Source: Candidatus Sulfotelmatobacter sp.
GTDB lineage: Bacteria > Acidobacteriota > Terriglobia > Terriglobales > Acidobacteriaceae
DNA length: 40,309 bases
Reading direction: 5' to 3'
Assembly: GCA_030041415.1 (NCBI GenBank)
Contig: JASHNX010000057.1
Location: 1-40,309 of the forward strand
Shown in pieces: positions 1-26,507 of this stretch. The position numbers were made by a program, and so were the translations under genes. Each line of letters opens with the position of its first letter. Within the stretch, counting starts at the first letter, position 1. The notes beneath the pieces were generated by a model. That model had not been told where the DNA came from and did no database searches. It saw only the letters and a program-made list of their open reading frames with translations.

Positions 1-1383
1 TGCCACGCTAACCGTCGCGGCCAGCAAAGTTCCCACGATTCCGTACAACCAACGATCATCTGTGGGCAGTGACGGCACCGACGGGGCTTCGGCAACCGTA
101 ACGTTAAGTATCCGCTGCGCGTCCAAAGCATCGGTCATGCGGGCTTCTTCACGCTTGTGCAGGTAAAGCAAATAGTTGTCTTCGTCCGTTTTCGCGGTGC
201 GGGTCAGATCCTGTTGAGCGATATCTTTTTCTTCCAGCTGCACGGTGTCCTGCTGATACACGTTCACAATGGCTTGTAAGGCTGCCTCGCGGGCTTTCAG
301 CGAACTGTAATCCGATTTGGCTCGCGCCAGCTCAGTGCCGATCCAAGCGTACGTCGGATTCTGATCAGTCACCTGCTCCTTCAACGGCTTGCTCTCTTCG
401 GCGGCAATTGAAGTCCGCGTGTCAGCGATCTCTTTATCAACCTCTTGCACCAGCCGATAACTGGGTTGATACTTCGTCAGTAATTCAGTGCGCTTGAGTT
501 CCAAAGTCAGCAGTGTGCTCTTGAGTTGCTGGAGTACGGTAGCGTCGTCTGCCTCTTTGACCTGAGTGGTGAGGCGGTTGGGCGTTGAGCCTTCCTGCTT
601 CTGGAGATCTTGGATGCGCTCCGCTGTCGCAGCCAGATCGGCCCGCGTCTGCTGGAGATTGGCGTTAAAGTCATTCAGCTTTTGCAGGGCGATGTCGCGG
701 GCCACCTTTGGAGCTACCCCTCCCTGCTCCTTGGCAAACTGCCGAAGCTGGTTCTCTGTGTTCTCCAGATCCTTGCGGTAGCGCTCAGTCTCCTGTTCAA
801 AAAATTGAAGTTGCCCCGGGGCTCTATAAACGTCGAGATGCTTTTGGATATACGCATTGTCCAGCGCAGACAAAACCTGCGCGGCTTGTTTCGGATCGGT
901 CGAGGTGTAGGAAATACTGATCAGATTGCTTTTGCGAATCGGGTCGATCTTGAGCTTGGATCTGAGACGCAAAACCGCTTTCGCGATCTTCTCGTTTTCA
1001 GTCACGGTCCAGGGCAGGTAGGATGAGAGACTGCTCCTGTGTTGCAAGCCACAGGCGGTCACGGTCTGGCGCAGCACGTCGTCACTCTCGATAAGCGCGA
1101 TCTCTGAGTTGAGTTCTTCCTCACTGATTTCGTCCCGAATCTGTACCTGCGTGGTTTGCTCGGGCGACACTACCGGGTCGACGCGTTCGCGCTTCACCAA
1201 AACATTGGTCTGAGCTTTGTATTCGGCGGGCATGAAGAGCACGGTAAGCAACGTACCCAGCAACATTCCGCCGAAACATAACGTCAAAATACCCTTATGG
1301 CGAAAGCCGACTGCGGCTAGGTCGCGCAAAGTGACTGACTGCGGCCGTGCTGCATTGATCTGATCGAAATCTTGATTGCTCAC
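1..1383 (-). CDS. GumC/Wzz-like polysaccharide chain-length protein (3' end beyond window)
   Basis: Inner-membrane co-polymerase that in Wzx/Wzy-type systems sets polymer length and links periplasmic polymerisation to the outer-membrane export channel. The visible 461 residues start at a GTG at 1383 with the SD GAGGAGG five bases upstream. They show a membrane segment at about residues 37-58, a Wzz-type periplasmic domain, and a long coiled-coil-rich stretch with many Gln, Glu, Lys and Leu residues. A second membrane segment begins at the very end of the window sequence (WLYGIVGTLLAA). Whether a C-terminal tyrosine-kinase domain follows cannot be seen; a separate CpsD-like gene at 17631 makes a kinase-less GumC form more likely. 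It lies 60 bp after the GumB/Wza-like gene, the usual order for such pairs. Family call is firm; substrate is unknown. Confidence 0.88.
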   Translation of the reverse strand, partial: MSNQDFDQINAARPQSVTLRDLAAVGFRHKGILTLCFGGMLLGTLLTVLFMPAEYKAQTNVLVKRERVDPVVSPEQTTQVQIRDEISEEELNSEIALIESDDVLRQTVTACGLQHRSSLSSYLPWTVTENEKIAKAVLRLRSKLKIDPIRKSNLISISYTSTDPKQAAQVLSALDNAYIQKHLDVYRAPGQLQFFEQETERYRKDLENTENQLRQFAKEQGGVAPKVARDIALQKLNDFNANLQQTRADLAATAERIQDLQKQEGSTPNRLTTQVKEADDATVLQQLKSTLLTLELKRTELLTKYQPSYRLVQEVDKEIADTRTSIAAEESKPLKEQVTDQNPTYAWIGTELARAKSDYSSLKAREAALQAIVNVYQQDTVQLEEKDIAQQDLTRTAKTDEDNYLLYLHKREEARMTDALDAQRILNVTVAEAPSVPSLPTDDRWLYGIVGTLLAATVSVA

Positions 1384-1443
1384 AATAGCCTCCTCGGTGC
1401 CTGCCCACCGAACAGCAATTTGCAACAGCTTTCCGGCATTCGT

Positions 1444-2151
1444 CTACCGGGTGATCGGCACGTACGCGCCCAAGCCGGAGTTGGGTATGTAGGGCTTAAT
1501 CTTGGACAACGTGTTCTGCGGCACGTACACCAAGTCTCCCGGATGCAAACGTGGATCTTCGTGAAGGTTGCCTGCTTTCAACATTTCCTTCACGTTGTAA
1601 ATCTTGGCATGAAGCCAATCGTCATTTACGCGCCGGAACAGTACAACCTGAGAATGCTTGGCGCTCTCGCTGAAACCGCCGGCAATGGCGACCGCTTCCG
1701 TCAGGGTCACATCGCCCCGAAGATCATATTTCCCGGGATGATTCAATTGGCCGATCGCCGTGAAATAAGGTTTCTCAAAATCCTTCATCACTACCGAGAC
1801 CGGCGGGTCGTTCAGGATTTTGTCGTAAGCGTCATGCAGAGTCTTAGTCAGCTCCGGCACAGTCTCGCCGGCAACGTGGATGTCCCCAACACTCTTAAGA
1901 GTTACGAAACCGTCCGGCTGAACTACCACTCCCGGCTGGTTAAACTCAGGGCTAAGTTCAAAGTTGATATCGAAGCTGTCGCCGGCGCGGATGGCGTAGC
2001 GGGGATTCCGCTCTTGAAATTGGATATCATTCGCATTATCGGCCGGCGAACTGGTGGTCTTCGCACTGGCAGGTGTCGGAGCGTTCTGCGCCACGCTGAG
2101 CGTAGCCGTCGCCAGCAATCCAACCATCATTCCTAGCAGCATCTGTTTCAT
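1444..2151 (-). CDS. GumB/Wza-like polysaccharide export protein (Poly_export + SLBB)
   Basis: Periplasmic/outer-membrane export protein, 235 aa from ATG 2151; an upstream in-frame ATG at 2319 would place non-membrane sequence before the signal peptide and is rejected. Residues 1-21 form a signal peptide (MKQMLLGMMVGLLATATLSVA). A Poly_export region follows (RYAIRAGDSFDINF, then VVQPDGFVTLKSVGDIHVAG), then an SLBB domain (FTAIGQLNHPGKYDL ... LTEAVAIAGGF). The length is close to GumB (about 210-230 aa) rather than to the roughly 370-aa E. coli Wza. There is no lipobox cysteine, so unlike Wza it is probably not acylated. The GumC/Wzz-like partner follows directly. Upstream is a 338-bp gap after the C-A-PCP-TE gene, so it may have its own promoter. 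Confidence 0.9.
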   Translation of the reverse strand: MKQMLLGMMVGLLATATLSVAQNAPTPASAKTTSSPADNANDIQFQERNPRYAIRAGDSFDINFELSPEFNQPGVVVQPDGFVTLKSVGDIHVAGETVPELTKTLHDAYDKILNDPPVSVVMKDFEKPYFTAIGQLNHPGKYDLRGDVTLTEAVAIAGGFSESAKHSQVVLFRRVNDDWLHAKIYNVKEMLKAGNLHEDPRLHPGDLVYVPQNTLSKIKPYIPNSGLGAYVPITR

Positions 2152-2489
2152 GATGAATTTTCCCTTTAGCCCACGCCGGGCAAATGCTCGATTTTTAGTC
2201 CATTTCTCAATCGATCGCAAGCCTAAAATAGCCGGCATCACAGAAAGCTCCGCCGTCTCAGTCCCATTTCTCAAGGAACCAGGAGGAGCCAGAGCCAGGG
2301 AGGAACGAGTAATGCCCACTATGTCTGCGGGGGATCACGCCGTAGCCTTCCATGGCGTGACGGATGACTTTCATCGGAGTCTACGTGGCCCCACCACCTG
2401 CCGCAAGAGTCAAATGCCTCAGTGACTAATTTCTCTATTCCACCCAAAATGCGAGAACAAAGCTCCCTGCCCACCCCTGCAAGTGCTTG
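2152..2489. other. 338-bp gap upstream of the export gene, with an inverted repeat
   Basis: No credible gene on either strand. The one clear element is a perfect 7-bp inverted repeat (see 2335-2360). No convincing -35/-10 pair was found for the minus-strand export gene. A TGAC...TTGC pattern near 2480 has wrong sigma-54 spacing. Confidence 0.6.
2335..2360. promoter_or_regulatory. Inverted repeat TCACGCC-N12-GGCGTGA
   Basis: TCACGCC at 2335-2341 is the exact reverse complement of GGCGTGA at 2354-2360. It sits about 185 bp before the GumB/Wza-like start and about 130 bp after the NRPS stop. It could be an operator, or an RNA hairpin acting as an intra-operon pause or attenuation site. There is no T-run on either side, so it is not a standard terminator. 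Confidence 0.35.
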
Positions 2490-5400
2490 TCATGCTTCAT
2501 GTAGCAATTTCGCCGGTTTTTCATGATCGGCAGCCTGTCTTACCGCATGGAACAGATGATCTGTGAGCTTTGCGGCCAGCAGGTTTACGTTCGGCTCTTT
2601 AAACATTGATGGATGGTCTCCGGGTATGCGTTGAAAAACGATGCCATCCCGAACCAGATCCTTCCAGCCCAGCTCAAAATTGAAGTATTCGCCACTTGGC
2701 CAGTCGCTGGACTGGAATAAAACCATGTTTCCTGGATAAGCGGTCGGCTCGTAGCGGTGAAACGCCGGGTGAACCACCGAATCCGTGTTGCGCAATTTTC
2801 CATTTTGGCCCTGATCGCCTGACAGCCGCCACATGGTGCGCTCCAGCTTCCTCCGCGCTTCTTCGAACCGGTCCGCAATGTAGGCAGAACTCTCACGCAA
2901 GTCGAGCTGCAGCAGATTGGCCAGATGATATTTGATCCGGCCCGTGTATCGCCCGTCTCGCAACGGGCTCTTGTAATAGGCGTGGTTATGTCCATCGAAC
3001 ATTGCAAGGAGTCCCACTTGATCGCCTTGCATCCGGAGCTGGCGGGCCACCTCATAAGCGATCACCGCATTCACGCAGAGCCCCGCTAAGTGATATGGAC
3101 CCTCGGGCTGAACTTCGCGCATCGCCCGCACCATGAATGCCGCAATGTCCTCGACGCGGTAGGGACTGGGCAGCTTGATCGCGTCAGAGTATGGAATATC
3201 GAGTCCGAGCAGAGGCTGGTCCGGGCCTAGTTTACTGGCCAGCAGCCGGAATCTCGGTCCAGCGCGAACCACAAATAAAGGTGGGCGCGATCCATTGGGT
3301 TGAATCGCGACAATGGCACGCGCCGCCAGACTACGATCCGGACTGCGCAGCCAATCGGCCATCAATTCGATAGTGGGGGCCTGGAATACAAAAGCCAAAG
3401 AGAGCGACTGCTCGAATTCTTGCTCGATCCGGTACAACAGTTTGGCGGCGAGCAGAGAGTGTCCGCCCAGCTCGAAGAAATTCGCGGTAACGTCGTCACT
3501 CTCAGTTTCCAGAACTTCTTTCCAAATTGTCACCAGCCGAGCTTCCAGCGAATCGCGCGCAGCAATCGCTCCAACCGGGGTGGAATTCGCAAGGCCGACC
3601 GACCTCGACGATAAAGCCTGGCGATCAACTTTTCCATTGGGCGTGCGCGGCAGCGCGGAAACAAACACAAAGCTGGATGGCACCATGGAGGCGGGCAATC
3701 GCAATTTGAGTGACGCGCTCATCTCAGCCGCGGAAGTTGCATATTGCTCGCGTGCTACTACATAAGCCACCAGAAGTGGCTTACCGGAATTTTCTTCCAC
3801 TACCACCGCGGCCTCTCGTACTTCCGGATGTTCGTTAAGCGCTGACTCAATCTCGCCCAACTCTATTCGCACACCGCGAATCTTCACTTGTTCATCGATT
3901 CGGCCAAGAAAAACCAGATTGCTGTCGGGAAGGCAGCGAACCAAATCTCCGGTCCGGTAAATTCGGCTATCCGCAGCTTCGGGGAAAGTCTCTGCGAACG
4001 GATTGGCCAGGAATTTCGATCGGGTGAGCTCCGCCTGATTCCGGTATCCGCGCGCTACTCCTTCTCCCGCGACATACAGTTCGCCTTGCACTCCAGGAGG
4101 AACCGGTTGCATACTCCGGTCGAGAACATACGTCTGAGTGTTGGCGATTGGCCGGCCAATAGGCACGGCGCTCTGCTGCTCCTCTGGCCGGCATTTGTAC
4201 ACCGTGCTCCACACTGTTGCTTCGGTTGGCCCGTATTCGTTGAATAACTCGACGTCGGGCAGCAGCCGGTAATGCAACGCTACCAACTGCCTTGGACAAA
4301 CTTCACCCGCGACGATCACCTGACGAAGCGAGACCAGTTGGTGCGCGCCGGCAGTCTCCAGCAGTTCGCTGTAAAGCAAGGGAATGCACAATAGGTTCGA
4401 GATCCGGTTCTGGGCAATCAGACTGGCAATCTGACGGGCTTCCCAGTTGAAATCCGGCACTGGCAGGATCAATGCTCCGCCCGAACAGAGAGCGTGGAAA
4501 ATAACCGCGACCGAGCTATCGAACGCAAACGACGACAGGAGCAGGAAATCCTTTCCGGCATCGGCGTAGTAATCGAGTCGAGCGGCAGTCGATTGTGCGA
4601 GATTTTGTTGTGTAACCTCCACGCCTTTGGCTCCGCCGGTTGAGCCGGAGGTATAAATCACATATGCCAGATTTTCTGGTTTGACGTCTTCGGTCATCAA
4701 AGACGAAGGTTGCTTCTCAATATCCTTCCACTCCGAGTCCAGGCAGACGACTCGACACTGCTTGCGGCGTTGCTCGCTTCTCAGCAGGGATTGCTGAGTA
4801 AGCAGAACCGGCGCCTGGCAGTCCGCCAGCATAAAATCCAGGCGCTCCTCGGGGTACGCGGGATCAAGGGGCACGTAAGCGCCGCCAGCCTTCAGAATTC
4901 CCAGGATACCGATCACCATTTCAAGCGAGCGCTCCACGCACAGAGCGACCGGGACCTCAGCGCGCACTCCGACGGTTCTTAGATAATTCGCCAGTTGGCT
5001 GGCTCGCCTGTCCAGCTCGATGTAGCTCAACGTCTGCGATCCGCACTTTACTGCGATGGCATCCGGTGACTTCTCGGCGTGCACTTCAAACCGTCGCGTT
5101 ACCAACTCCACCGGATAATGCTTCCGCGTATCGTTCCACTCAACGAGAAGTTGGCGTCGTTTTTCATCGCTCAGAATCGGAACCTGGCTGATGCGTTGGC
5201 CGGGGTTGGCTACAATTGCTTCCAATAGCGTCTCCCAGCAATCGATGAGTTGTGTAATGGTCGCGGGAGCAAACAAATCGCTGCTGTAGATGACGCGCCC
5301 CATCAGTCCGTCGGTTCGGTCATCGAGCACAAAACACAGGTCAAACTTTGCAGTGCCGGTTTCGACGTCAATCGGCGTTAAATCCCATCCCGGCTGTACC

Positions 5401-6596
5401 TCAGAAAGCCCGGGTTCGAGCGACAGAAGCACACGGAACAACGGATTGCGGCCAGCATTGCGGTCGGGATGCAAATCCTCGATGATCTGATTCAACGGCA
5501 CATCGTCGTGGCCAAGCGCTTCGATCGTAGTAATGCGCACGCGCTCTAGCAGCTCGAGAAAAGTAGGATCTCCCGCGAGATCGCTGCGCAGAACCACAGT
5601 GTTCAGGAAGAAGCCGAGCAGTTTTTCTGTCCCGCGATGATTGCGGCCGGAGGTGATGCTTCCGACCAGGATGTCCTCCTGCCCCGAATAGCGGTAGAGC
5701 AGCGTATCCAAAGCCGCCAGAACGGTCATGAAGAGAGTTACGCCTTGCTTCCGGCTCAAACTATGGAGAGCTTCGCGGAGCGAGCGGGGCAGCGCGAAAG
5801 ATTGCATTGCTCCACGAAAAGATCCTCCGCCGCCGGTCACTGCATCGGTAGGCAATTGCAAGGCGGGCAGAGTACCGCCCAACTGCTTGCGCCAATAATC
5901 GACATGGCCTTTGAGCGATTCGCGCTTCTGCGATTCGCGTTGCCACACGGCATAGTCTCCGTACTGAAATGGCAACTCCTCTAACGGCGATGGTTGGGAG
6001 TTTGCGAAAGCCTCGTACAGGCTCACCAACTCTGGCAGAAACACCTGATATCCGGTCACGCCGTCAAAGATGAGGTGATGACAGTTGACGAACAGCCGGT
6101 ATTCTTCGTCCGCCAACCGGACCAAATGCGCCCGGACTAGCGGTCCTTTGGCAAGGTCGAAGGGCTGGCGTGCATCTTCTGTAGCTAGACGCAGAGCGGC
6201 TGAAGTGCGCTCGGACTCGGGAAGACCTCGCAAATCCACAACCGGAAGCTTGATTTCAAATGGGGGATGCACCATCTGTACAGGCTGGCCATCGCGCATC
6301 GGGAAGGTGGTTCGCCAGGCCTCGTGCCTGCGAACGATTTCTGTGAAGCTGCGTTCCAGAGCCGCGACATCGAGCCGCCCCTTACGATGCACGGTGAAGG
6401 GTTCGTTGTAGAGCGGAGTGCCAAGTGCGAGTTGAGCGTGCAGCCAGATTTGCTCCTGCGCAAACGTAAGCGGAATTATGCTTTCGGGCGAGCGGCGGCC
6501 AATCGCCGATGGAGCAATCGCTTCCTTTCCACGCTGGTCGAGATACTGCTCCAGCAGTTTGCGCTTTTGGTCCGAGATTTCCAGGGTCTCAACCAT
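2490..6596 (-). CDS. NRPS module C-A-PCP-TE with a cysteine-type thioesterase
   Basis: Complete NRPS module, 1368 aa from ATG 6596, which overlaps the deacetylase stop by 8 bases (ATGGTTGA), suggesting translational coupling. It is the only protein here with a condensation domain (about 40-470; HHLIFDG at 173-179). The A domain (about 500-1000) has YTSGSTG, NEYGPTE and NGKVDR. My manual code is D-S-A-C-I-A-E-V-W-K, which I do not recognise; small residues at positions 236 and 239 suggest a roomy pocket. The PCP has FFELGGHSL. The TE (about 1100-1340) shows A-G-L-C-V-N-A, so Cys1174 sits where the usual GxSxG serine would be, with a candidate Asp in MFDGH and His in GDHPSMF. As the only C-bearing module it is the likely peptide-bond former and release point, taking donors from the free carrier proteins upstream in the operon. 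Confidence 0.92.
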   Translation of the reverse strand: MVETLEISDQKRKLLEQYLDQRGKEAIAPSAIGRRSPESIIPLTFAQEQIWLHAQLALGTPLYNEPFTVHRKGRLDVAALERSFTEIVRRHEAWRTTFPMRDGQPVQMVHPPFEIKLPVVDLRGLPESERTSAALRLATEDARQPFDLAKGPLVRAHLVRLADEEYRLFVNCHHLIFDGVTGYQVFLPELVSLYEAFANSQPSPLEELPFQYGDYAVWQRESQKRESLKGHVDYWRKQLGGTLPALQLPTDAVTGGGGSFRGAMQSFALPRSLREALHSLSRKQGVTLFMTVLAALDTLLYRYSGQEDILVGSITSGRNHRGTEKLLGFFLNTVVLRSDLAGDPTFLELLERVRITTIEALGHDDVPLNQIIEDLHPDRNAGRNPLFRVLLSLEPGLSEVQPGWDLTPIDVETGTAKFDLCFVLDDRTDGLMGRVIYSSDLFAPATITQLIDCWETLLEAIVANPGQRISQVPILSDEKRRQLLVEWNDTRKHYPVELVTRRFEVHAEKSPDAIAVKCGSQTLSYIELDRRASQLANYLRTVGVRAEVPVALCVERSLEMVIGILGILKAGGAYVPLDPAYPEERLDFMLADCQAPVLLTQQSLLRSEQRRKQCRVVCLDSEWKDIEKQPSSLMTEDVKPENLAYVIYTSGSTGGAKGVEVTQQNLAQSTAARLDYYADAGKDFLLLSSFAFDSSVAVIFHALCSGGALILPVPDFNWEARQIASLIAQNRISNLLCIPLLYSELLETAGAHQLVSLRQVIVAGEVCPRQLVALHYRLLPDVELFNEYGPTEATVWSTVYKCRPEEQQSAVPIGRPIANTQTYVLDRSMQPVPPGVQGELYVAGEGVARGYRNQAELTRSKFLANPFAETFPEAADSRIYRTGDLVRCLPDSNLVFLGRIDEQVKIRGVRIELGEIESALNEHPEVREAAVVVEENSGKPLLVAYVVAREQYATSAAEMSASLKLRLPASMVPSSFVFVSALPRTPNGKVDRQALSSRSVGLANSTPVGAIAARDSLEARLVTIWKEVLETESDDVTANFFELGGHSLLAAKLLYRIEQEFEQSLSLAFVFQAPTIELMADWLRSPDRSLAARAIVAIQPNGSRPPLFVVRAGPRFRLLASKLGPDQPLLGLDIPYSDAIKLPSPYRVEDIAAFMVRAMREVQPEGPYHLAGLCVNAVIAYEVARQLRMQGDQVGLLAMFDGHNHAYYKSPLRDGRYTGRIKYHLANLLQLDLRESSAYIADRFEEARRKLERTMWRLSGDQGQNGKLRNTDSVVHPAFHRYEPTAYPGNMVLFQSSDWPSGEYFNFELGWKDLVRDGIVFQRIPGDHPSMFKEPNVNLLAAKLTDHLFHAVRQAADHEKPAKLLHEA

Positions 6597-7398
6597 GACT
6601 GATCGGCGACGCGCTGGCTTCGCCTGCGGCGAGCGTTCCCGATCCGGCCGACGTTTCTCCGTACAGCAAGGCCAACAGCTGGCCATTCGTCACATACTGA
6701 ACGCCGGTCTGATTGCTAACATATTCGAGCATTTGCCGCAGTTGCGGCCATAGCTGGAGTTGTTCTAACTCCCACGGGTGCCCCGACAAATGCCAAACTC
6801 CGCCCTGCCGCCGAACCCGGTCAAATAATGTCTTGCCGAGACTGAGCCAGTCCTTGAAGTGAATCAGATCCCATGACGATTTCATCAAGGCACCGACCGC
6901 TCCATACCGAAGCAGATTGCGCACGTAGTTCGATCGGCCATGCGGGTACGCTTGCACGGTGATTGGCATGGCGAAGGGGTGGAACCTGGCGCTGCAAGAA
7001 AGCATCTGCGTGCCACGGGCCCCGCGATAACCGCAGCGTTTCACCGCACTCATCAACTGAGCGTTCAAGCGACCTTTGGGATAACAGAACATGGTCACTT
7101 CCCTTCCCAGTATTTGCTGCAGGGTGCTCTTGCATGCGCTGATTTCGCGGGCTTGTTGGCCGGCGCCAACTTGGGTAAGAACGGCGTGTGTTACCGTGTG
7201 CCCGCCAATCTCGAAACCGGCAGCGGAAAGAGTGCGCAGGTCGCTCACGCTAAACAGCGAATCGCGGCCTAATCTTCCCGTGGGTACGTAAAAGGTACCG
7301 GGCAGCCGATGGACACTGAGCAGTTCGGCCAGCTTCAGGCCGCTGCGATCGTCATCATCCCAGCTCGTGGTTACGAAAACCGGCGGCATGGCTGGCAT
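6589..7398 (-). CDS. NodB-type polysaccharide deacetylase (CE4)
   Basis: Metal-dependent deacetylase removing N- or O-acetyl groups from a sugar or glycan. From ATG 7398 (269 aa, GGGA five bases upstream) the CE4 motifs are SWDDDD (residues 12-17; catalytic Asp and metal Asp), HTVTH (67-71; metal His pair) and FCYPKGRLN (104-112). In-frame ATGs at 7431 and 7389, and an open frame up to 7536, make the start uncertain. A start at 7536 would overlap the flippase stop (7451) and add basic, unconserved sequence. No signal peptide is apparent, so a cytoplasmic substrate (lipid-linked or nucleotide sugar) or non-classical placement is possible. It sits between flippase and NRPS, fitting polymer tailoring. 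Confidence 0.85.
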   Translation of the reverse strand: MPAMPPVFVTTSWDDDDRSGLKLAELLSVHRLPGTFYVPTGRLGRDSLFSVSDLRTLSAAGFEIGGHTVTHAVLTQVGAGQQAREISACKSTLQQILGREVTMFCYPKGRLNAQLMSAVKRCGYRGARGTQMLSCSARFHPFAMPITVQAYPHGRSNYVRNLLRYGAVGALMKSSWDLIHFKDWLSLGKTLFDRVRRQGGVWHLSGHPWELEQLQLWPQLRQMLEYVSNQTGVQYVTNGQLLALLYGETSAGSGTLAAGEASASPISHG

Positions 7399-7450
7399 TC
7401 TAATCCCAGAACCCGACCCGCTTCCTCCCATTTGCGACGCAGAAACTGCT

Positions 7451-11555: not shown

Positions 11556-11832
11556 GGCATTCAATTGGTTTCGAGCTGTAGGCTGATCGCCTGGCCGGCG
11601 ACGCGAGGGATCGCGAAACCTTCGGGGTTCAGAAGATGAGCAGAGGCTGAGAACGGCTCCAGCCCTCTCAAACCGGCAGCGGCTTGACTGTCTCGTAGCA
11701 TTCCGACTTCTTTTACCCTATTGGAAGCGGCTTTGAACAGTGGTCCGGGCTAGGTACTGGACTATTAGCGAGCGGAGAGGTGAGAAGGAAGCGTGAAAAG
11801 GAGACTCGATACTGCTGGAGGAATAGGCGACA
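11556..11832. other. 277-bp gap between two NRPS genes
   Basis: No gene and no recognisable condensation-domain remnant in the minus-strand frames. This bears on the C-domain loss in the next protein. No clear promoter or terminator was seen. Confidence 0.5.
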
Positions 11833-16930: not shown

Positions 16931-16953
16931 AATTTCACTCTCCCAATGCAGGT

Positions 16954-18489: not shown

Positions 18490-18783
18490 TTACTCTTTGC
18501 GCTCAAGTGGAACCAGCGGACCGCTTGATTGAGCCGTGATATTGTGCTGTCGAATTTTGTACAGCAATCCACGATAGCTGATGCTCAACAGTTTCGCAGC
18601 CCGTTTTCGATTCCATCCGGTCTCTTGCAGGGCGCAATGGATTGCGGTCACCTCAGCCACAGCGCGCACACTCCGCAGGCTCATGTCGCGTCGCTGCTGA
18701 GAGTCGTCCTGTACCGGCTCGACTCCAGGGCTTTGGCGGTTAGTTTGGGCGGTGTGGCCGGGAGAATCGAGGTTAGTATTCAT
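18490..18783 (-). CDS. Orphan Fis-type helix-turn-helix protein
   Basis: 97-aa DNA-binding protein. Residues about 40-82 match the C-terminal HTH of NtrC-family regulators (AIHCALQETGWNRKRAAKLL then SYRGLLYKIRQ). There is no receiver and no AAA+ sigma-54-activating domain, so it could bind DNA but not open sigma-54 promoters itself. ATG 18783 is preceded by AGAGGAG with a three-base gap. The N-terminal 35 residues look disordered. It is placed first in a short run with the CpsD-like and acetyltransferase genes after a 371-bp gap, so it may be a local regulator of the EPS/peptide operon. Known analogues are the Fis-like ends of EPS regulators such as the PEP-CTERM-locus PrsR; this one may be a stand-alone derivative. 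Confidence 0.8.
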   Translation of the reverse strand: MNTNLDSPGHTAQTNRQSPGVEPVQDDSQQRRDMSLRSVRAVAEVTAIHCALQETGWNRKRAAKLLSISYRGLLYKIRQHNITAQSSGPLVPLERKE

Positions 18784-19154: not shown

Positions 19155-20879
19155 TCAATCGCAAACCGCCGAGGTTGGACCAAACACATTAAGTTCCCCG
19201 CGGGTACTCGTGCTGTCGGTTGGGTCCATCGTGCCCAGGTAAACAAGTCCGTTGGCGATTGTGGGCACAACAAACTTGGTCGCGTTGCCCGTCTGGTCGC
19301 GGGTGGGACATTGAGAACTGTTCCATAACTCCGGAATCACGTGAGCAGTCACGTGCTGCGCATCGTAAGCATAAAGCACTACCGGCTCCGGGGTGGCAAC
19401 CCCCTGCGCAGGCCAGCCGTTCCCATCCACCACCCATACGATTGCCGTTCCATTGTTAGTGCCGGAAGAAGAAATCGACAGACTCGGGCCGTATTCAAAG
19501 CTTACCGCGCTTTTCGCCGTCTGGTTCTGGCAAACCGGATAAGGATGACATGTCGGCGGGCTGGTGACGCTTACGCCATATTTCAAAAGAGGAGAATACA
19601 TCGGGGAATAAAACAGCGCCGAATTCCAATACCCCGCGGTTGTGTAAAACGCCTTGGGAGAAGCCTTAAAGTACTCCTGATTGGCGTTCGTGCCCGTCGC
19701 TGGGCAGGTACTATTTGTCGGAGGAGTGTAGCCCCCGGGGTTAGCACGATTCATCGCGTAAATGTTCCCATCTTTTCCCGCCGCGATGGCCCAATAGGTC
19801 GAACCGCTGTCAGGAATCAGCATGGTCCCGCCCGACCCGAAATCCTCATCTTCCACATCCATGCACTCTTGGCCAAACGGAGTGAAATATCCGTTCGGTA
19901 TGGTACTGAGGCTGGTCGTGAGCTTAACGAAGCTGTCCCCATAATCCGAACCACCGGTATTCACCGTGAAGTCGCCGTCTCCAGTGACGACATAAAGATA
20001 GGTGTCCCCGCCAGGCGAATCAGGCCCTGCCGCCAAACCGGCTCCAGACATCCATACACCCCCGCCTTCGAGAGCCGGCGTGCTGCTCCAGACAATTGGA
20101 GCGTTGGCCAGATTGTAGGCATCGTAGGCGAAAACCCAACCGCGGGGAATGCTTACCCCAACGACTCCCGTGCCATCCATCTCCGAGAAGCCGATATACA
20201 CGGTGCTATCCCCGTTCGACCAGGTGTTCGGCAACAGGAGCAGTCCCGGCCGTTGAATATGGTTGTACGCGCTAAATGCAACCTTTTGGTATGAACCGGC
20301 TATATCGACGGGGCCGCCAAATTTCTCAGCCAGAGTCGTCAGGTCGAGCGCGTGGAGCCGGTGCGTGAAGCACGAACTATTGTTGCCTGTGGCACAAGTT
20401 CCCGCGGTTGACTCCGTCTCGGTAACCAGAAAAATCGTATTCGTCGTGGAATCGATTACCGGAGTTCCAAGAATTCCAATGATGGGCTTTAGTGCGTAAC
20501 AGTGTACGCCACCCACCTTGGCACAGCCCACGGCAGTCTCATTAGCTTCAAGTAAAGAGACCTGGGCGATCTGGCTGCAATTGCTTCCGTTGATCTCGTA
20601 GACGCTATCGTTCATCGTCACGATGTAGACGGTGTTGTTCCCCCCGCTCGAGACCACTAAGGGCTGGGCATAAATCTGACCATCGACCACGGCCTGGCAA
20701 ACTTTGCCAAATTGAGTCGAGTTGACATTACTTTGATTGAGCACGGTTTCAGTTGCGTTCAGGCCATCGCGCCCATTGTCATTGTGCCAGGTGAGAACGT
20801 TGGTCTGGCCCGTCATCAGGGCTGCCGTGCAGACGACAAAACCACAGAGCAGTGGTAAGCGGCGAAACGATTTATTCAT
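19155..20879 (-). CDS. Secreted beta-propeller-like (PQQ-repeat-type) protein
   Basis: 574 aa from ATG 20879, with GGAG four bases upstream; an upstream ATG at 20966 would add 29 residues before the signal peptide. Residues 1-24 are a signal peptide (SFRRLPLLCGFVVCTAALMTGQ). The mature part has repeated blades of the pattern VYIVTMNDSVYEINGS, LLPNTWSNGDSTVYIGF, YLYVVTGDGDF, YWAIAAGKDGNIYAMN, VPTIANGLVYLGTMD, as in PQQ-dehydrogenase-like beta-propellers. It has about 14 cysteines, which suggests disulfides outside the cytoplasm. There is no PEP-CTERM or other sorting tail. No PQQ-enzyme catalytic residues were identified, so a binding or scaffold role is as likely as catalysis. It follows the beta-helix gene by 260 bp in the same direction. 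Confidence 0.75.
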   Translation of the reverse strand: MNKSFRRLPLLCGFVVCTAALMTGQTNVLTWHNDNGRDGLNATETVLNQSNVNSTQFGKVCQAVVDGQIYAQPLVVSSGGNNTVYIVTMNDSVYEINGSNCSQIAQVSLLEANETAVGCAKVGGVHCYALKPIIGILGTPVIDSTTNTIFLVTETESTAGTCATGNNSSCFTHRLHALDLTTLAEKFGGPVDIAGSYQKVAFSAYNHIQRPGLLLLPNTWSNGDSTVYIGFSEMDGTGVVGVSIPRGWVFAYDAYNLANAPIVWSSTPALEGGGVWMSGAGLAAGPDSPGGDTYLYVVTGDGDFTVNTGGSDYGDSFVKLTTSLSTIPNGYFTPFGQECMDVEDEDFGSGGTMLIPDSGSTYWAIAAGKDGNIYAMNRANPGGYTPPTNSTCPATGTNANQEYFKASPKAFYTTAGYWNSALFYSPMYSPLLKYGVSVTSPPTCHPYPVCQNQTAKSAVSFEYGPSLSISSSGTNNGTAIVWVVDGNGWPAQGVATPEPVVLYAYDAQHVTAHVIPELWNSSQCPTRDQTGNATKFVVPTIANGLVYLGTMDPTDSTSTRGELNVFGPTSAVCD

Positions 20880-21139
20880 AATTCTCCATCCTTTGTGTAG
20901 CGACTCAAACGCTTGGCTTCCCGAGCGAGCCGAAGAGATGCAAATTGCGGAGCAGAGCATCGGCAAGGCCGAGCTACTCCGAAAACGTGTTCCAGCGAAA
21001 ACGGTTCGTAACTATCAATCAGGGTTTCCACAACTGAAGGGGAGTCGTCAGCGCAGAGATCGGAGCTGTCCGGGGGAGGAATTGGTTCTTGCGCAAAAAG
21101 CTACCCTCTTGCGCAAAACGTTCAGACTTTATGATCAGG
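20880..21139. other. 260-bp gap with two TTGCGCAA palindromes 20 bp apart
   Basis: No gene. TCTTGCGCAAAA occurs twice, at 21087-21098 and 21107-21118, each containing the 8-bp palindrome TTGCGCAA (21089-21096 and 21109-21116). The spacing is exactly 20 bp, about two helical turns, which suits paired regulator sites. They lie about 210-240 bp upstream of the secreted propeller-like gene and 20-55 bp past the beta-helix gene. Confidence 0.45.
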
Positions 21140-24100
21140 CTATTGCGTCACTGTCTGGTTCACTACATTCGAGGTGCTGCCTGAAACATCGTGGTCGCCG
21201 GCGTACGTTGCAGTGACCGAATACTTGCCCGGGCTCAGAGTCTTCGTCTGGAGTACAGCGACGCCATTATTAAGGGAATGGGTCCCAAGAACCGTACTGC
21301 CTGCCTGGAACGTAACTTGTCCCGTTGGAGTGCTGGACGTGGAGCTGACCGTCGCTGTAAAAGTTACCGTCTGACCCGACGTTGATGGATTGGGACTAGC
21401 AGTCAGAACTGTAGCGCTCGCATCCTGACCGATCGTTTCGTTCAATGTGGGAGATGCGCTGTTGAGAAAGTTCGTGTCTCCCGAATATTTCGCGCTAATC
21501 TGCCATTCTCCCAATGGAAACGCGGAGGTCGTAAACGTAGCCACACCGTCATTGAGCGGCACCGTGCCGAGGGGCGCGCCCTTACTGAAAGTAACTGTTC
21601 CCGTCGGAGTACCCACCGGAGAGCTCACTCTCGCAGTGAACGTGACCGCCTGACCATACGCGGCCGGATTCACATTCGACTGTACTGCGGTCGTACTGCT
21701 GGCCCGGTCGACCCATTGCGAAAACGCGTTCGAAGTTGTCGCAAGCCAGAATGCATTTGCAGGAAAACTCGCGGTGATGAGATTTTGACCTACCGCCAGT
21801 CCGGAAACCTGAAGATTCGCGGCGCCTTGGACCGTGTCGCTTGTCCCCAAAACCTGTCCGTTCTCGGTGAAAGTAACTTGTGTTCCGTCGGGCGGAGGTC
21901 CGTAATTCGAACTGGCAGTCGCGGTCAGTATGACTGGTTCACCGTAAACCGCGGGGCTAGCATTTGATGTGATCGCCAGCGTCGAGGTGGTGATGTAGGA
22001 GCCCGTGGGGAAGGTCGCGGCTATGGCTGGCGGTTCCATGCATTGCGAGGCGCACCCCGGTGCATTGACATTAAAAGCCACGAACCCCACTTCCCCAGCC
22101 GGCGAACCGCTCTGCAGCGCAAAATTGTCCGTCGGATAATAAGGATCCACAAAGAGCGGGTCGGACTGCACGCTGTCCGCATCCTCACCCAAACCCTGCC
22201 AATCAGACCAGGTCAGCTGATGCACTATTTGGCAAGCGGCGTTTGTGGTGCGAAATGGGGTTGAGGTCAAAGCACAGCCGGAATTCGCCAGGTCGCAGTA
22301 CATATTGCTCGTGTACTTTTGCACCGTTGGTAAGCCGGCCTCGCCTCCTGGAGAATAAGCGCAGCCAATCTGAATTTCCGATTGGCTGAAAAAAACCAGA
22401 TTATTGCTGAACTCGAATTGGCTAACGCCAGAAGGAGCAGAGGAGACGACTCCTTCGATCTCCGTGCCGGTATACGAGAACACGTTGTTTTTGATCGTGT
22501 TCGGGGCCTGCGGTATTTGCGGCCCATCCGTTTGTGACATGGAATGGTCGGTGGTGCGATACACGAGGTTGTTCTCAACGATCACCTTCCCCGTGTCGTA
22601 GTCGAGCTTTACGCCATAGCCGCCATAACCATCCGTATCAAGTACGCTGGCGTCCGTCACATCGTGAATCTTGTTATTTAGGACTGTGTTTCCCGAGGCG
22701 GTGAAAGTCGGCGTTCCGGTGCTAAAGTACAGAGCCCCGGTGTCACTCAGGATCCCTTGCATCAGGTCATACACGTGGTTAAACGAAATAGCGATGTTGA
22801 AGGTGCCGTTCGAATCCGAGGTTCCTGGTGCACACCCCGACTCGCAGATGCCGATGGCAGAATGATAACTATCGTAGATGGTGTTGTGAGTATAAGTATT
22901 GTTGTTGCCGCTGCCCTGCGCGATTCCATAAACCGAGGGAAAAGCGCGCCCAACACCTTCAATCACATTGTTCTGAACAGTTACATTGTTTGGAACATTC
23001 GCGTCCGTATCCATGGTGCTGGAACCCGAACCCACGCGAACGCCCTCGCCACCGGTGTCGTAAAACGCTCCGTTCTGGATGGTGTCTTGACTCGTGCTCC
23101 CGTTGGAGGGCAAGCTAACGCACCAGGTCGGCGAGAAAGTGTTGACGCAGGTAACAAGTTCCAAACCTCCACCCGAGGTCTGCGTCACAACATCACTGTC
23201 AAAATTGACATTGTTGCAATTCTGGCAGGAAACGGCCGCGGGAATTCCGTAATCGCCCTGATTGGATTGGTATCCCGCCGCCGGCACCACAAAATCGTCG
23301 TGTTCAAACGAAAGCCCTTGAAAAGTGACGTACTGGATCTGAGAAGCAACCAGCACTTGCGTCGCCTGCGGGACAATTACTGGACTAGTGTTGGGATCCT
23401 CTCCTGAGTTGGCTAAGTATGTGAGCACCCACGGCGTGGTAGAGCGATTCAGAAACCATTGTCCCGGCTCCAGAAGTTCGTTCTGAACATTTTCAACCAG
23501 GTAGCGGTGGTTCGGAATGAATCCGTGCGCGGTGGGCTCGTAAGTACTGCTGGTCGGCCCAGTCATATAGATGATCTGGTTAGCGGTGTCAACGCAACTG
23601 ATCCTGAGCCTTGAAACTGTCCAGAACTCAAAATCGATCAACTGAATGTCACCCACCAAGTTGGAGTTCCCTGCGGGTTGGCCGCACGGGTTTCCGGCAG
23701 GCGGCGCAAGGTTCGTCCAAGTATCCGAAATGGGATCTGACGGGCTGTACTGAAAACGGTCAAAGCATTCCCATCCGCTTCCGTTCACGTAAACCGAGCA
23801 GTTTGGATCCGGCGGTGAATTCGGCGGAGGAGCGCCGTTGAGGAAAACTGTTGCCAGTACCCGATAGTAGGTACCGACGTTGGTTGTAGATGATCCCAAT
23901 CGGGGTCTCAACCTTCGCTGGCCGTTATAGAACAACTGCTCAAAATATTGCGTGCTGGTCGGCAAAGTTTTTTGCCACTCGTTGCCGCTGACTTTAGTCC
24001 AGCCTGTCAACTGCAGGCCGCCGCTGATCACAGGGCTCTCGTCAGGATAATTTTCCCAGATTACGTGGAGCTGAGAGGTTCCGGAATCAGCGCTGGTAAA

Positions 24101-24379
24101 CTCGAGCGTCTGCGACTGCCAATAAATGCCCTTCCGCAGCATGACTGTGATGGGAGCAGTGCGCCCATTCGGATTCGAGAGGATCTGGCGCACGGCTGTT
24201 TGTGCGCGCGAAACGGTTGCGAATGGCCCATCGGTATCACTTGAATTCGGCGCGGCCAGAGTACCGCTCCACGCATCATTGCCATCCGTCGCGACGTAGT
24301 AATCCGCAGTCTGAGCCTTGGCTGCAGTACTTCCGAAGACACCGAGAAAAAGGCATACGAATATTGTGCGTAACGACAC
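21140..24379 (-). CDS. Secreted right-handed parallel beta-helix protein with three C-terminal Ig-like repeats
   Basis: 1079 aa from GTG 24379: GGAG lies eight bases upstream and the start gives a clean signal peptide (SLRTIFVCLFLGVFGSTAAKA). An in-frame ATG at 24430 would put 17 residues in front of it. The mature protein opens with YYVATDGNDAWSGTLAAPN, typical of beta-helix lyase/epimerase-like proteins. Then come beta-helix coils rich in N-N and V-x-N-N-V (NVTVQNNVIEGVG, NNTYTHNTIYDSYHSA, GNTVLNNKIHDV). The last ~290 residues are three Ig-like repeats (SNASPAVYGEPVILTATA; NVNPAAYGQAVTFTARV; SPNPSTSGQTVTFTATV). The fold fits polysaccharide lyases, epimerases or glycan-binding proteins, so trimming or remodelling of the exported polymer is a fair inference. 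Catalytic residues were not identified. Confidence 0.8.
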   Translation of the reverse strand: MSLRTIFVCLFLGVFGSTAAKAQTADYYVATDGNDAWSGTLAAPNSSDTDGPFATVSRAQTAVRQILSNPNGRTAPITVMLRKGIYWQSQTLEFTSADSGTSQLHVIWENYPDESPVISGGLQLTGWTKVSGNEWQKTLPTSTQYFEQLFYNGQRRLRPRLGSSTTNVGTYYRVLATVFLNGAPPPNSPPDPNCSVYVNGSGWECFDRFQYSPSDPISDTWTNLAPPAGNPCGQPAGNSNLVGDIQLIDFEFWTVSRLRISCVDTANQIIYMTGPTSSTYEPTAHGFIPNHRYLVENVQNELLEPGQWFLNRSTTPWVLTYLANSGEDPNTSPVIVPQATQVLVASQIQYVTFQGLSFEHDDFVVPAAGYQSNQGDYGIPAAVSCQNCNNVNFDSDVVTQTSGGGLELVTCVNTFSPTWCVSLPSNGSTSQDTIQNGAFYDTGGEGVRVGSGSSTMDTDANVPNNVTVQNNVIEGVGRAFPSVYGIAQGSGNNNTYTHNTIYDSYHSAIGICESGCAPGTSDSNGTFNIAISFNHVYDLMQGILSDTGALYFSTGTPTFTASGNTVLNNKIHDVTDASVLDTDGYGGYGVKLDYDTGKVIVENNLVYRTTDHSMSQTDGPQIPQAPNTIKNNVFSYTGTEIEGVVSSAPSGVSQFEFSNNLVFFSQSEIQIGCAYSPGGEAGLPTVQKYTSNMYCDLANSGCALTSTPFRTTNAACQIVHQLTWSDWQGLGEDADSVQSDPLFVDPYYPTDNFALQSGSPAGEVGFVAFNVNAPGCASQCMEPPAIAATFPTGSYITTSTLAITSNASPAVYGEPVILTATASSNYGPPPDGTQVTFTENGQVLGTSDTVQGAANLQVSGLAVGQNLITASFPANAFWLATTSNAFSQWVDRASSTTAVQSNVNPAAYGQAVTFTARVSSPVGTPTGTVTFSKGAPLGTVPLNDGVATFTTSAFPLGEWQISAKYSGDTNFLNSASPTLNETIGQDASATVLTASPNPSTSGQTVTFTATVSSTSSTPTGQVTFQAGSTVLGTHSLNNGVAVLQTKTLSPGKYSVTATYAGDHDVSGSTSNVVNQTVTQ

Positions 24380-24688
24380 AGGTCCATCTCCAAGCGGCCA
24401 ATGTAGTCGGCACGAAGGGGGATCGTTCACCCGCCCCGGCGAGCTTGTGAAGTTTATAGAGGCTCATGGGCGACAAGTCAAAACTCAGAAGTGCAAGCCG
24501 AACCACGCGACTGGCGGCCATTCTGAGGCAATTGGACCGGTGCTGCTAGACACCAAAAGAGGGGGCGGGATCGACCGTACGTCACGTCGAGAATTGAGGA
24601 AAACTGGACCTGGGAAGTTCCAGGGCGAAGATTCGAAGCCCTGCCTGCAGGCGCTCCTGTGGATTTTATAGGGATTTTCTGGCTGCCC
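24380..24688. other. 309-bp gap between the ATPase and beta-helix genes
   Basis: No gene supported. On the minus strand, CCTGGAACTTCCCAGG (24609-24624; 5-bp arms) is followed five bases later by TTTTCC, a weak terminator-like element behind the ATPase gene. A 10-bp palindrome GCCTGCAGGC lies at 24643-24652. A CTATAAAAT box at about 24665-24673 has no matching -35. Confidence 0.45.
24609..24624 (-). terminator. Weak terminator-like hairpin after the ATPase gene
   Basis: CCTGG-AACTTC-CCAGG, then TCCAG and TTTTCC on the minus strand, about 65-80 bp after the ATPase stop. The stem is short and the T-run is offset. It might be an attenuation point that the NusG-like protein overrides. Confidence 0.3.
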
Positions 24689-25660
24689 TCATGCCTGGGG
24701 TTTACGCTTCCAGGCGCTTAATTGCCCGGTGAGCTCCCGCATGTACGCCTTTGCGTCATCCGGACTGAGGCTCTCCTCCGATGGATTCGCCGCGGGCTGC
24801 ACGCCAGACAGGCCAAAAGGCGAGGGCTGCGCGATCGGCAACTCCGTTAGATGTTTCTTCATATCCAGATCGCCGATCACTTCTTCTACCAAGTCAGGAC
24901 CAATCAGCTTTTGCCGCATAGCGCAACCTAGCGACATCGCGTTAAAACAGAAGTTGTTGAGGTTACGCGGAATGCCTTCTGTGAACTCGGTGACCAGATG
25001 CATCGCTTCCGGCGTAAACAGCGGATCACCCGAATACCCTGCGATGCGTAGGCGATGATTTACGTAACTGCTGGACTCCTCGACTGACAATGGCGCCAGG
25101 CCGCTGAGCGAAGATATGCGCTGCTTCAGTTGCGAAAGCTGGCGGCTCGCGAGTTTATCGGCCAATTCCGGTTGTCCCGACAGGACTATCTGCAACAGCT
25201 TGGCGCGCGGGGTTTCGAAATCGGAAAGCAGTCGGATGGTTTCCAGCACCGACCGATCCAGATTTTGCGCCTCGTCGACGACAATAATGAAACGCCTGCC
25301 CGCGCTGGCTTCCTGCAAGAGCAACTTGTTGAATTCGTCGTGCATGCGCACAAAATCATGCCCCACCGTTTCACACCCCAGTTCGGTGAGCAGGAAGCGC
25401 ATGAACTCCCTTGAGTCGCATTGCGTCTGAAAAATAAATGCGGTGCGCGCCGCGCCGCGAAACTTCTCCATCAAATGAAACAGCAAGGTCGTTTTTCCCG
25501 TACCCGGCTTGCCAATCAACGCCAGGAAGCCGCGCTCGGAATCGATGCCGTAATACAGTGACGCCAGCGCCTCCCGATACCCGCGGCTTAAATAGAGAAA
25601 ACGAGGATCGGGAGTTACCCCGAATGGTTGTTCTCGCAATCCGTAGAATTTCAAAAACAT
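24689..25660 (-). CDS. ExeA/GspA-like AAA ATPase (EPS/exosortase-locus type)
   Basis: 323-aa AAA ATPase. It opens with MFLKFYGLREQPFGVTPDPRFLYLSRGYREAL, the signature of ExeA-like proteins that accompany XrtA/PEP-CTERM and EPS loci. Walker A is GKPGTGKTT, Walker B is FIIVVDEAQNL, and arginine-rich sensor regions follow (SGQPELADKL; EGIPRNLNNFC). The C-terminal 50 residues are Pro/Ser-rich and unconserved, and there is no membrane segment. ATG 25660 has AAGGA six bases upstream. The role in polymer export is unproven; it probably uses ATP to assemble or regulate an envelope complex. It is 48 bp after the NusG-like gene, so the two should be co-transcribed. No exosortase or PEP-CTERM tail was found in the window. 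Confidence 0.88.
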   Translation of the reverse strand: MFLKFYGLREQPFGVTPDPRFLYLSRGYREALASLYYGIDSERGFLALIGKPGTGKTTLLFHLMEKFRGAARTAFIFQTQCDSREFMRFLLTELGCETVGHDFVRMHDEFNKLLLQEASAGRRFIIVVDEAQNLDRSVLETIRLLSDFETPRAKLLQIVLSGQPELADKLASRQLSQLKQRISSLSGLAPLSVEESSSYVNHRLRIAGYSGDPLFTPEAMHLVTEFTEGIPRNLNNFCFNAMSLGCAMRQKLIGPDLVEEVIGDLDMKKHLTELPIAQPSPFGLSGVQPAANPSEESLSPDDAKAYMRELTGQLSAWKRKPQA

Positions 25661-25708: not shown

Positions 25709-26269
25709 TTAGGCAACTTCTAGAGCATACCCCTGTATTCGAATCGACAACGAGCGTTGAATCGGCTCAATCGAAATGGAGAGGCTCTGATCTCCATTGT
25801 GCGCCGCCAGAACGCCCTCGACTCCGTCCAGACATCCGCCCCGGATACGAACCCGTTGCCCCACCTTCGGAAACGGGTGTTCCTCGAAGGGGACGTTGCT
25901 TTGTAGTAGCGTCTGGATATCACGAATTTGACTATCGGGAATCGCTGTTCCTGCGCCGTTAATACCCACAAATCCCGCGACTCCGTGAGCCTGCAAGACT
26001 CGCAACCGATCCCGTGACGACAAGACAATGCGCACAAAGCTATATCCGGAAAAAAGCGGCACCTCAACTTCCTTCATCCGGTCGCTCCATTTGTGAGTGC
26101 GTTTTACCAAGGGAAGGAAGTTTTCAATTCCTTGTAGCTTCAACTGTTCGGAAACCATTTTCTCGTGGCGGGAACGGGTTCGAACTGCATACCACTCCGG
26201 GTGGGAAGGAAACGGAATCGTTCGTGGTGCTGCCAGATCGATTGCGATTTGCGCGCAACTGCTGCTCAT
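25709..26269 (-). CDS. NusG-family antiterminator (UpxY/RfaH/LoaP-type paralogue)
   Basis: 186 aa with an N-terminal NGN domain (about 24-120: EWYAVRTRSRHEKMVSEQL ... FLPLVKRTHKWSDR ... VPLFSGYSFVRI) and a C-terminal KOW domain (about 130-180: PFPKVGQRVRIRGGCLDGVEGVL). Housekeeping NusG normally lies with secE and ribosomal genes. A paralogue heading a long polysaccharide or secondary-metabolite operon is typical of UpxY, RfaH and LoaP, which load onto RNA polymerase and suppress termination across the operon. Here it is the first gene behind the predicted promoter at 26421-26449, and about 25 kb of minus-strand genes follow. The first 22 residues are extra to the NGN core. ATG 26269 has no strong SD (GAGGGCGAAGCT). 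Its target element is not identified. Confidence 0.88.
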   Translation of the reverse strand: MSSSCAQIAIDLAAPRTIPFPSHPEWYAVRTRSRHEKMVSEQLKLQGIENFLPLVKRTHKWSDRMKEVEVPLFSGYSFVRIVLSSRDRLRVLQAHGVAGFVGINGAGTAIPDSQIRDIQTLLQSNVPFEEHPFPKVGQRVRIRGGCLDGVEGVLAAHNGDQSLSISIEPIQRSLSIRIQGYALEVA

Positions 26270-26280
26270 AGCTTCGCCCT

Positions 26281-26321: not shown

Positions 26322-26339
26322 GACTGGCAAAAACCAGTC
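26322..26339 (-). promoter_or_regulatory. Leader hairpin GACTGG-N6-CCAGTC upstream of the NusG-like gene
   Basis: Perfect 6-bp arms inside the predicted leader, 53-70 bases before the start codon. An overlapping alternative pairing exists: AGACTG (26308-26313) with CAGTCT (26335-26340). It could be a recruitment or attenuation element for the NusG-like protein. Confidence 0.4.
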
Positions 26340-26387
26340 TGGGATAAAGTTAAAGTTAAGGGGAGAACAGCTGCTTAAGACTACAAA

Positions 26388-26409
26388 ATTGGGTTGATCG
26401 GCTCCCAAT
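26388..26409 (-). terminator. Attenuator-like hairpin ATTGGG-N10-CCCAAT followed by TTTG
   Basis: Read on the minus strand, 6-bp arms are followed at once by Ts (CCCAATTTTG), a short intrinsic-terminator pattern. It starts only about five bases after the predicted start of the NusG-led transcript. Its stem is AT-rich and would be weak. Confidence 0.35.
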
Positions 26410-26420
26410 ATGTTCCCGCG

Positions 26421-26449
26421 ATTCTATGCCGCTATGCAAATTCCTGCAA
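26421..26449 (-). promoter_or_regulatory. Predicted sigma-70-type promoter of the NusG-led operon
   Basis: Minus strand: TTGCAG (26449-26444), a 17-base spacer, then TAGAAT (26426-26421). The -10 matches five of six consensus bases, the -35 three of six, and the spacing is ideal. Start would be near 26414, leaving a leader of about 145 bases before the NusG-like ATG. Confidence 0.5.
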
Positions 26450-26484
26450 GAGGAGAAAGTGGAGAGACAAAAGACCCAATCAGG

Positions 26485-26504
26485 CTTGAGTGTTCGGGCT
26501 CAAG
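26485..26504 (-). terminator. Possible terminator after the GAF-TonB gene (CTTGAG-N8-CTCAAG)
   Basis: Perfect 6-bp arms starting 3 bases past the TAA stop at 26508. A T-rich TCTTTTG follows about ten bases later rather than directly, so efficiency is doubtful. It would separate this gene from the NusG-led operon. Confidence 0.4.
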
Positions 26505-26507
26505 GGC

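Follow-up and report, generated by a model that had tools for sequence, protein, structure and literature searches.

Non-ribosomal peptides are seen mostly as metabolites in free form, and the polysaccharides of bacteria as polymers of sugars that bear simple substituents. In D-alanylation by DltA/DltC, a carrier-bound amino acid is placed on a surface polymer, and the pyrrole-2-carboxyl cassettes of the clorobiocin, prodigiosin and pyoluteorin types consist of a stand-alone prolyl adenylation (A) domain, a peptidyl carrier protein (PCP) and a flavin dehydrogenase. Here, we analysed the whole of contig JASHNX010000057.1 of Candidatus Sulfotelmatobacter sp. (40,309 nucleotides; the window), in which non-ribosomal peptide synthetase (NRPS) genes are placed between genes for an exopolysaccharide (EPS). 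The gene content and the conserved linkage of the two gene sets are solid, and the locus probably encodes a Wzx/Wzy-type EPS, the repeat unit of which would be acylated by short NRPS products before flipping.

The locus resembled Wzx/Wzy-dependent (Gum-like) EPS loci in its export and chain-length proteins, priming transferase, Wzx-like and Wzy-type proteins, deacetylase and acyltransferase, but added four A domains, one condensation (C) domain and two thioesterases (TE). With XrtA/PEP-CTERM EPS loci, the subject of PMC1569441, it shared an ATPase, a tyrosine-kinase-like protein and GumB/GumC relatives of XrtA-named families, and the acyl ligase family TIGR03098, named for that system, matched the proline-type A domain of the window at 362 bits. 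However, the XrtA-named models all remained below cutoff for window proteins, and no exosortase was found in the locus, the far end of which lies beyond the available sequence; the sole PF09721 match was on another contig (C296). The pyrrole-type cassette of the window differed from the described ones in lying among EPS genes, next to a hexapeptide acyltransferase, and in not reaching the equivalog cutoffs. In comparison with DltA/DltC, the DltA models were far below cutoff here, and the window has several A domains plus C and TE domains. For lincosamide synthetase and streptothricin, passages of PMC4351081 describe an NRPS-type A domain and a carrier that activate an amino acid, which is joined to an amino sugar, the joining being credited to a condensation domain in streptothricin. 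Those products are small antibiotics rather than polymers and involve no Wzx/Wzy export.

NRPS clusters with MacB pumps are reported in passages of PMC9723581 on Ca. Angelobacter, and the words “polysaccharide” and “flippase” are absent from its main text. In the titles and abstract openings of open-licence literature, NRPS genes inside an EPS operon were not described among the matches listed. The parts of the locus are thus of known kinds, and their combination is not described in the literature found. A conserved NRPS-EPS operon, if true, would be a new route to charged or hydrophobic surface polymers, and some orphan NRPS metabolite clusters of soil Acidobacteriota would be glycan clusters.

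Gene content of the locus

The window (40.3 kb) is an entire contig (G000:C147) of a 4.8-Mb genome assembly of 350 contigs, which is 95.6% complete. A single minus-strand run extends from a GAF/TonB gene at 28001 to position 1, with 17 junctions and gaps of -98 to 371 bp. The gene content, order and direction claimed in the original prediction were confirmed by the layout of open reading frames (ORFs) and by Pfam/NCBIfam matches, although its propeller label for 19155-20966 found no family support and its “beta-helix” protein could be called so by eye only, the firm matches being three Big_3_5 domains. From the UpxY gene, which is likely the head of the long operon, to GumC, the genes follow in this order (T, carrier domain):

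25709..26269, minus: UpxY-family NusG antiterminator (NF033644 120.5 bits, cutoff 100)
24689..25660, minus: XrtA/PEP-CTERM-associated ATPase-like protein (TIGR03015 251 bits, cutoff 324.5; P-loop of GMGKT/GTGKT type in aligned relatives)
21140..24430, minus: large protein with three Big_3_5 Ig-like domains (Pfam), not constant in related loci
19155..20966, minus: protein without family support, propeller-like by eye, not constant in related loci
18490..18783, minus: Fis-type helix-turn-helix protein (PF02954 40.5 bits)
17631..18413, minus: CpsD-like (bacterial tyrosine kinase-like) protein, degenerate Walker A (TIGR03018 87.5 bits, below cutoff)
16954..17544, minus: hexapeptide acyltransferase, serine-acetyltransferase-like (PF00132 43.5 bits; NF041874 71.6 bits, cutoff 150)
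15785..17014, minus: prolyl-carrier-protein dehydrogenase (ProDH; NF045652 434 bits, cutoff 650; PDB 4irn 491 bits)
14151..15743, minus: stand-alone A domain, probably for proline (TIGR01733; PDB 6o6e, prolyl ligase, 387 bits; code DLF(S/Y)LALVCK)
13828..14094, minus: stand-alone carrier protein (PF00550 23.5 bits, cutoff 20.8)
11833..13755, minus: A-T didomain, Leu-type code DAWFLGNVVK (Pfam)
8868..11564, minus: A-T-TE, code DIEDIGTIIK, TE with GxSxG (Pfam)
7451..8842, minus: Wzx-type MOP flippase (by AlphaFold2 fold; no Pfam match)
6589..7536, minus: polysaccharide deacetylase, start possibly nearer 7392 (PF01522 65.8 bits)
2490..6686, minus: C-A-T-TE, TE motif GLCVN (Pfam; the only PF00668 match of the assembly)
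1444..2319, minus: GumB-like polysaccharide export protein (PF02563 58 bits, above cutoff)
1..1425, minus: GumC-like chain-length protein, truncated at the contig end (TIGR03007 111 bits, cutoff 278.85; PF02706 (Wzz) 22.7 bits, cutoff 25.5)

For the XrtA-type ATPase, the CpsD-like protein and the prolyl dehydrogenase, the Pfam/NCBIfam matches were mostly below equivalog cutoffs. The operon runs past position 1 onto contig C103, with an overlap of 353 bases at the start of the window (both overlap ends match, and identity is not complete throughout). On C103, GumC is completed to 544 aa and is followed by a priming polyprenyl-phosphate sugar transferase (TIGR03025 418 bits, above the cutoff of 295.55). 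The genes after it encode a Wzy_C protein, a sulfotransferase and an NHL-repeat protein, and the beginning of a carbamoyltransferase gene comes last. The Wzy-type protein matched PF04932 at 51.6 bits, a family named for O-antigen ligase that cannot alone separate polymerase from ligase. No transporter besides the Wzx-like flippase was seen among the operon genes of the window.

Linkage of NRPS and EPS genes in relatives

The protein claimed as a flippase had no Pfam match at E<=1, and its assignment came from the predicted fold. The AlphaFold2 model (mean pLDDT 84) had WzxE (9g9p) as its top PDB match, with TM scores of 0.76/0.85, and MATE and MurJ structures ranked close behind; by this model the protein is Wzx-like and closest to the lipid III flippase WzxE. 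At E 1e-60 the flippase was found in 37 of 397 genomes of the order, all within the family of the window, and at E 1e-50 in 3 of 396 genomes of the phylum, the genome of the window being counted in both samples.

Linkage was scored at 39 flippase loci, namely the 37 matches of the order sample plus those of G161 and G171, which were reached through ProDH; G057 (41%), G127 (26%), G045:C4 (27%) and G073:C30 (a 90-residue fragment) stand outside this count. Where the flippase was at least 40% identical, an NRPS A, C or TE domain was present on the same strand within 10 kb in 31 of 33 loci, at distances of 60 to 1785 bp. At 38% identity or less, none of six loci had an NRPS core domain within 10 kb, and G069 had one 17 kb off. 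This identity cut was chosen after seeing the data, and the full EPS gene set was scorable at only some of the loci since several contigs of the relatives are short. The conservation of EPS and NRPS genes together, proposed as a check in the original prediction, was therefore mostly borne out.

The position of the NRPS genes between EPS genes also held, both in the window and across at least three kinds of gene order in relatives. In the first kind, a single P450-C-A-T-TE protein accompanies the proline cassette (e.g. G006, G168). In the second, P450-A-T-TE and a separate C-A-T-TE are present with the cassette (G123, G158, and the window without the P450). The third has no proline cassette and shows A-T-TE and the flippase, followed by A-T, P450 and C-A-T-TE (G022, G077, G045). 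Where C-A-T-TE was not a separate protein, the basic-residue module carried the C domain as a fusion. In G006, G168, G171 and G154, all ORFs of at least 200 aa from GumB to the second sulfotransferase, opposite-strand ORFs excepted, matched EPS-locus or NRPS queries.

At L133 in G152, a 58% flippase ortholog has no EPS or NRPS neighbour among the queries within 20 kb. Several other loci, such as L027 (G006) and L098 (G154), contain a GH10 xylanase-type enzyme, a relative of GDP-mannose 3,5-epimerase and two sulfotransferases, which may point to a polymer that is sulfated and contains xylose and L-galactose.

NRPS domains and predicted substrates

The window contains four A domains against one C domain and two thioesterases, and that C domain, in C-A-T-TE, was the one PF00668 match (E<=0.001) of the assembly, so that a long peptide made via C domains alone is unlikely. 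Substrate codes were read at the specificity positions of an alignment made in this analysis. The code DAWFLGNVVK, which we take to be that of Leu, was found in 22 of 24 aligned A-T domains. A DIEDIGTVIK-like code was present in 26 of the 30 domains nearest the A-T-TE query (G069, G165, G092 and G112 deviate); DIEDIGTIIK, the form in the window, presumably specifies a basic residue. All 14 domains nearest the C-A-T-TE query had the code DSA-x-[I/V]-AEVWK. The proline code had one alignment-dependent position, which was S in one alignment and Y for G162 in another.

The HHxxxDG motif of the C domain was retained in 25 of 29 cases, and GxSxG in all 28 thioesterases nearest A-T-TE. Among the thioesterases nearest C-A-T-TE, GLCVN was found in 14 of 15 (window included) and GICAG in G165. 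Cys stood at the place of the nucleophile in 15/15 of these, and GLCVN has Asn for the second Gly.

A cytochrome P450 lay within 3.5 kb in 22 of 23 A(Leu) loci, the exception being the window; the P450 ortholog of its genome (71%) was located outside the window, at contig edges in C162 and C349. The closest solved relative of this enzyme is P450 BioI, which works on carrier-bound acyl chains.

Proline cassette and hexapeptide acyltransferase

The probable prolyl A domain, PCP and ProDH of a pyrrole-type cassette were all present, ProDH at 434 bits against a cutoff of 650. The pyrrole assigned in the original prediction could nevertheless be dehydroproline, as the nearest solved relative of ProDH was the prolyl-ACP dehydrogenase 4irn, and 5zw0, an L-prolyl-PCP dehydrogenase, scored lower (307 bits). 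ProDH was found at E 1e-100 or better in 11 of 150 genomes of the family and 25 of 45 of the genus (window genome counted).

The hexapeptide gene was present in 24 of 28 ProDH loci, within 300 bp in 22 of these; the count leaves out G167, G172 (two), G162:C312, G188 and G162:C14, the last of which has one end of a ProDH at its contig edge. The four loci without it were G069, in an EPS region with a ProDH of 74% identity, and G092, G075 and G112, with ProDH at 61% or less and no EPS neighbours except epimerase-like matches. Conversely, no hexapeptide match was found in seven EPS loci without ProDH, each of at least 27 kb (G022, G077, G045, G126, G135, G054, G165). In G049 and G105, the cassette adjoins the EPS gene set on the opposite strand. 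Since the hexapeptide gene tracks ProDH, a four-gene cassette is indicated, in which the hexapeptide protein would be the transferase for the proline-derived group; this would explain why that group needs no C domain. Alternatively, this protein may be an ordinary O-acetyltransferase.

Proposed route and alternative explanations

From the gene content, linkage, flippase fold and motifs, we infer the following chemical steps, attachment to sugar and step order. The priming transferase and glycosyltransferases would assemble sugars on a lipid carrier, while cytoplasmic NRPS enzymes would charge carrier domains with Leu, a basic residue and one more residue; Leu would be hydroxylated by the P450 in most relatives, and the single C domain could join two loaded residues. 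The TE domains may pass the group not to water but to a hydroxyl or amine on the lipid-linked sugar, and the deacetylase may free an amine on the sugar. The proline cassette would make a pyrrole- or dehydroproline-2-carboxyl carrier thioester, from which the hexapeptide acyltransferase would move the group to the sugar. The decorated unit would then be exported by the flippase and polymerised by Wzy, and the polymer exported by GumB/GumC. The conserved linkage, together with the lack of any other transporter in the window operon, favours a polymer carrying aminoacyl groups. With a single C domain, one amide bond can form in this way, which suits mono- or di-aminoacyl groups better than a peptide; of the peptidyl or aminoacyl polymer originally proposed, the aminoacyl part is thus favoured and “peptide” is probably too strong. 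The linkage also leads to a prediction that chemistry can test directly: the polymer should bear Leu or hydroxy-Leu, a basic residue, and pyrrole or dehydroproline.

More specifically, the locus may represent a class of NRPS-acylated EPS of one acidobacterial family, in which aminoacyl or dipeptidyl and pyrrole-type groups are carried on lipid-linked repeats and co-exported by a matched Wzx, the hexapeptide protein acting as a carrier-protein-dependent pyrrolyl (or dehydroprolyl) transferase; this fuller proposal is tentative and falls a little short of probable. It is also possible, within the acylated-EPS reading and with somewhat less confidence, that each modification of the sugar is separate, the hexapeptide protein moving the pyrrole-type group, A-T-TE the basic residue alone and C-A-T-TE a dipeptide, and that nothing longer than this dipeptide is made. 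One C domain against four A domains agrees with this form, as does the fusion of the C domain to the basic-residue module where C-A-T-TE is absent as a separate protein, although repeated action of the C domain is conceivable. On the whole, the parts are likely attached separately.

Several observations weigh against acylation of the polymer. No dedicated aminoacyl-to-sugar transferase was identified for the NRPS part, for which transfer by TE is proposed. Two high-identity flippases lack nearby NRPS genes, in G152 (58% identity, no NRPS gene across 20 kb) and in G169 (NRPS at 36 kb), and G073, with a flippase of 36-37%, has A(Leu) at 9.4 kb; therefore, the identity cut is not clean. The flippase matches all fall in one family, so that shared ancestry accounts for part of the linkage. 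EPS loci without the NRPS block, named in the original prediction as its refutation, were found only with distant flippases: no NRPS core domain was present in the stretch examined in G135, G054, G105, G297 and G414, the last two over 10 and 7 kb only. In G105 the proline cassette lies about 11 kb away, and in G054 and G135 the A(Leu) module is in a separate glycan-type locus. The A(Leu) module also occurs elsewhere. In a search of the family sample for the A-T protein, with up to 8 candidates scored per genome, 20 stand-alone A-T loci of at least 47% identity were obtained (a G077 fragment omitted), 14 of which had a glycan context: nine belonged to the main type, one was G073 with its distant flippase, and G054, G135, G029 and G023 were of other types. 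Four (G082 twice, G051, G112) had a layout like that of NRPS clusters that carry ABC-2 transporters, a context established by Pfam for G082:C2 and for G168:C71, outside the 20; G072 and G090 were assigned to neither group. Outside this operon type, A(Leu)-P450-C modules were thus seen with ABC-2 transporters (G168:C71, G082:C2), and also near glycolysis genes (G160). The module therefore either came from ordinary NRPS clusters or is common to both.

Such modules also speak for a free diffusible NRPS small molecule, co-regulated with the EPS and perhaps matrix-associated, which would share the operon without a chemical link; thioesterases, moreover, normally release free products. This explanation is nevertheless unlikely, because the linkage persists through gene-order changes with the NRPS genes between EPS genes, and no separate exporter was recognised in the four EPS-linked loci of G006, G168, G171 and G154. 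Neither in these nor in the window operon, the far end of which is missing, was an exporter or resistance gene of its own recognised for a free metabolite. Export of the NRPS product by the MOP protein in a MATE-like manner, with a different flippase for the EPS, is very unlikely: in the window, its gene follows that of A-T-TE at a distance of 25 bp, and the structures ranked next include MATE transporters, but the best match is WzxE, a Wzy-type protein and priming transferase are present, and no second Wzx was recognised in the superoperons, part of whose ORFs were scanned with Wzx models. That the neighbourhood arose by chance from a single insertion and is functionally meaningless would suit the confinement of the flippase matches to one family in the samples; it is the least probable account, as the linkage is kept across many species, several gene orders and flippases down to 40% identity.

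Further observations on A(Leu) modules and glycan loci

The glycan context of the A-T loci was assigned by Pfam for G054 and G023 and by similar layout for G135 and G029. The G054 locus contains GT2, two priming transferases, an epimerase, a GHMP kinase, a deacetylase and a phosphopantetheinyl transferase; that of G023 contains a Wzc-like protein, GT1, Wzy_C and Asn-synthase, with a member of another Wzx family (PF13440) immediately preceding the A-T gene. As two more EPS-type loci with A(Leu) NRPS genes, G054 and G023 speak for the acylated-EPS reading. An exclusive association of the A(Leu)-P450 pair with glycan loci was considered and rejected, since ABC-2-type NRPS clusters also have the module. 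A second NRPS type in the family (L181, L173, L174, L176, L179) combines A(Leu)-P450 with a domain of code VDWVSSIADK, which begins with V, so that its substrate is perhaps not an amino acid; ABC-2 transporters stand beside it in L181 and L173. In a plasmid collection, 449 records matched C-A-T-TE, all at less than 60% identity, and three regions among the five listed (H2, H4, H5) contained NRPS genes but no annotated EPS genes; the enzyme type alone is therefore not indicative of EPS.

Other genes of the operon and its flank

The CpsD-like protein at 17631-18413 has GNGST and no P-loop Lys, and Lys was present in 0 of 30 aligned loci (window included), mostly with GxGCS or similar; it may therefore be a pseudo-kinase. 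A large protein at 28000-30516, divergent from the operon, had no firm family match, and a protein similar by eye is found at the end of the G006 locus. The features at the head of the run and beyond it are:

26508..28001, minus: GAF and TonB C-terminal domain protein (Pfam), often retained near the locus in relatives
30752..32176, plus: UDP-glucose 6-dehydrogenase-type enzyme (TIGR03026 441 bits, cutoff 189.8; TuaD 496 bits, below cutoff)
32215..33174, plus: UDP-glucuronate decarboxylase-like enzyme (PDB 4gll 371 bits)

The last two, on the divergent flank, likely constitute a UDP-xylose route, as judged from their similarities.

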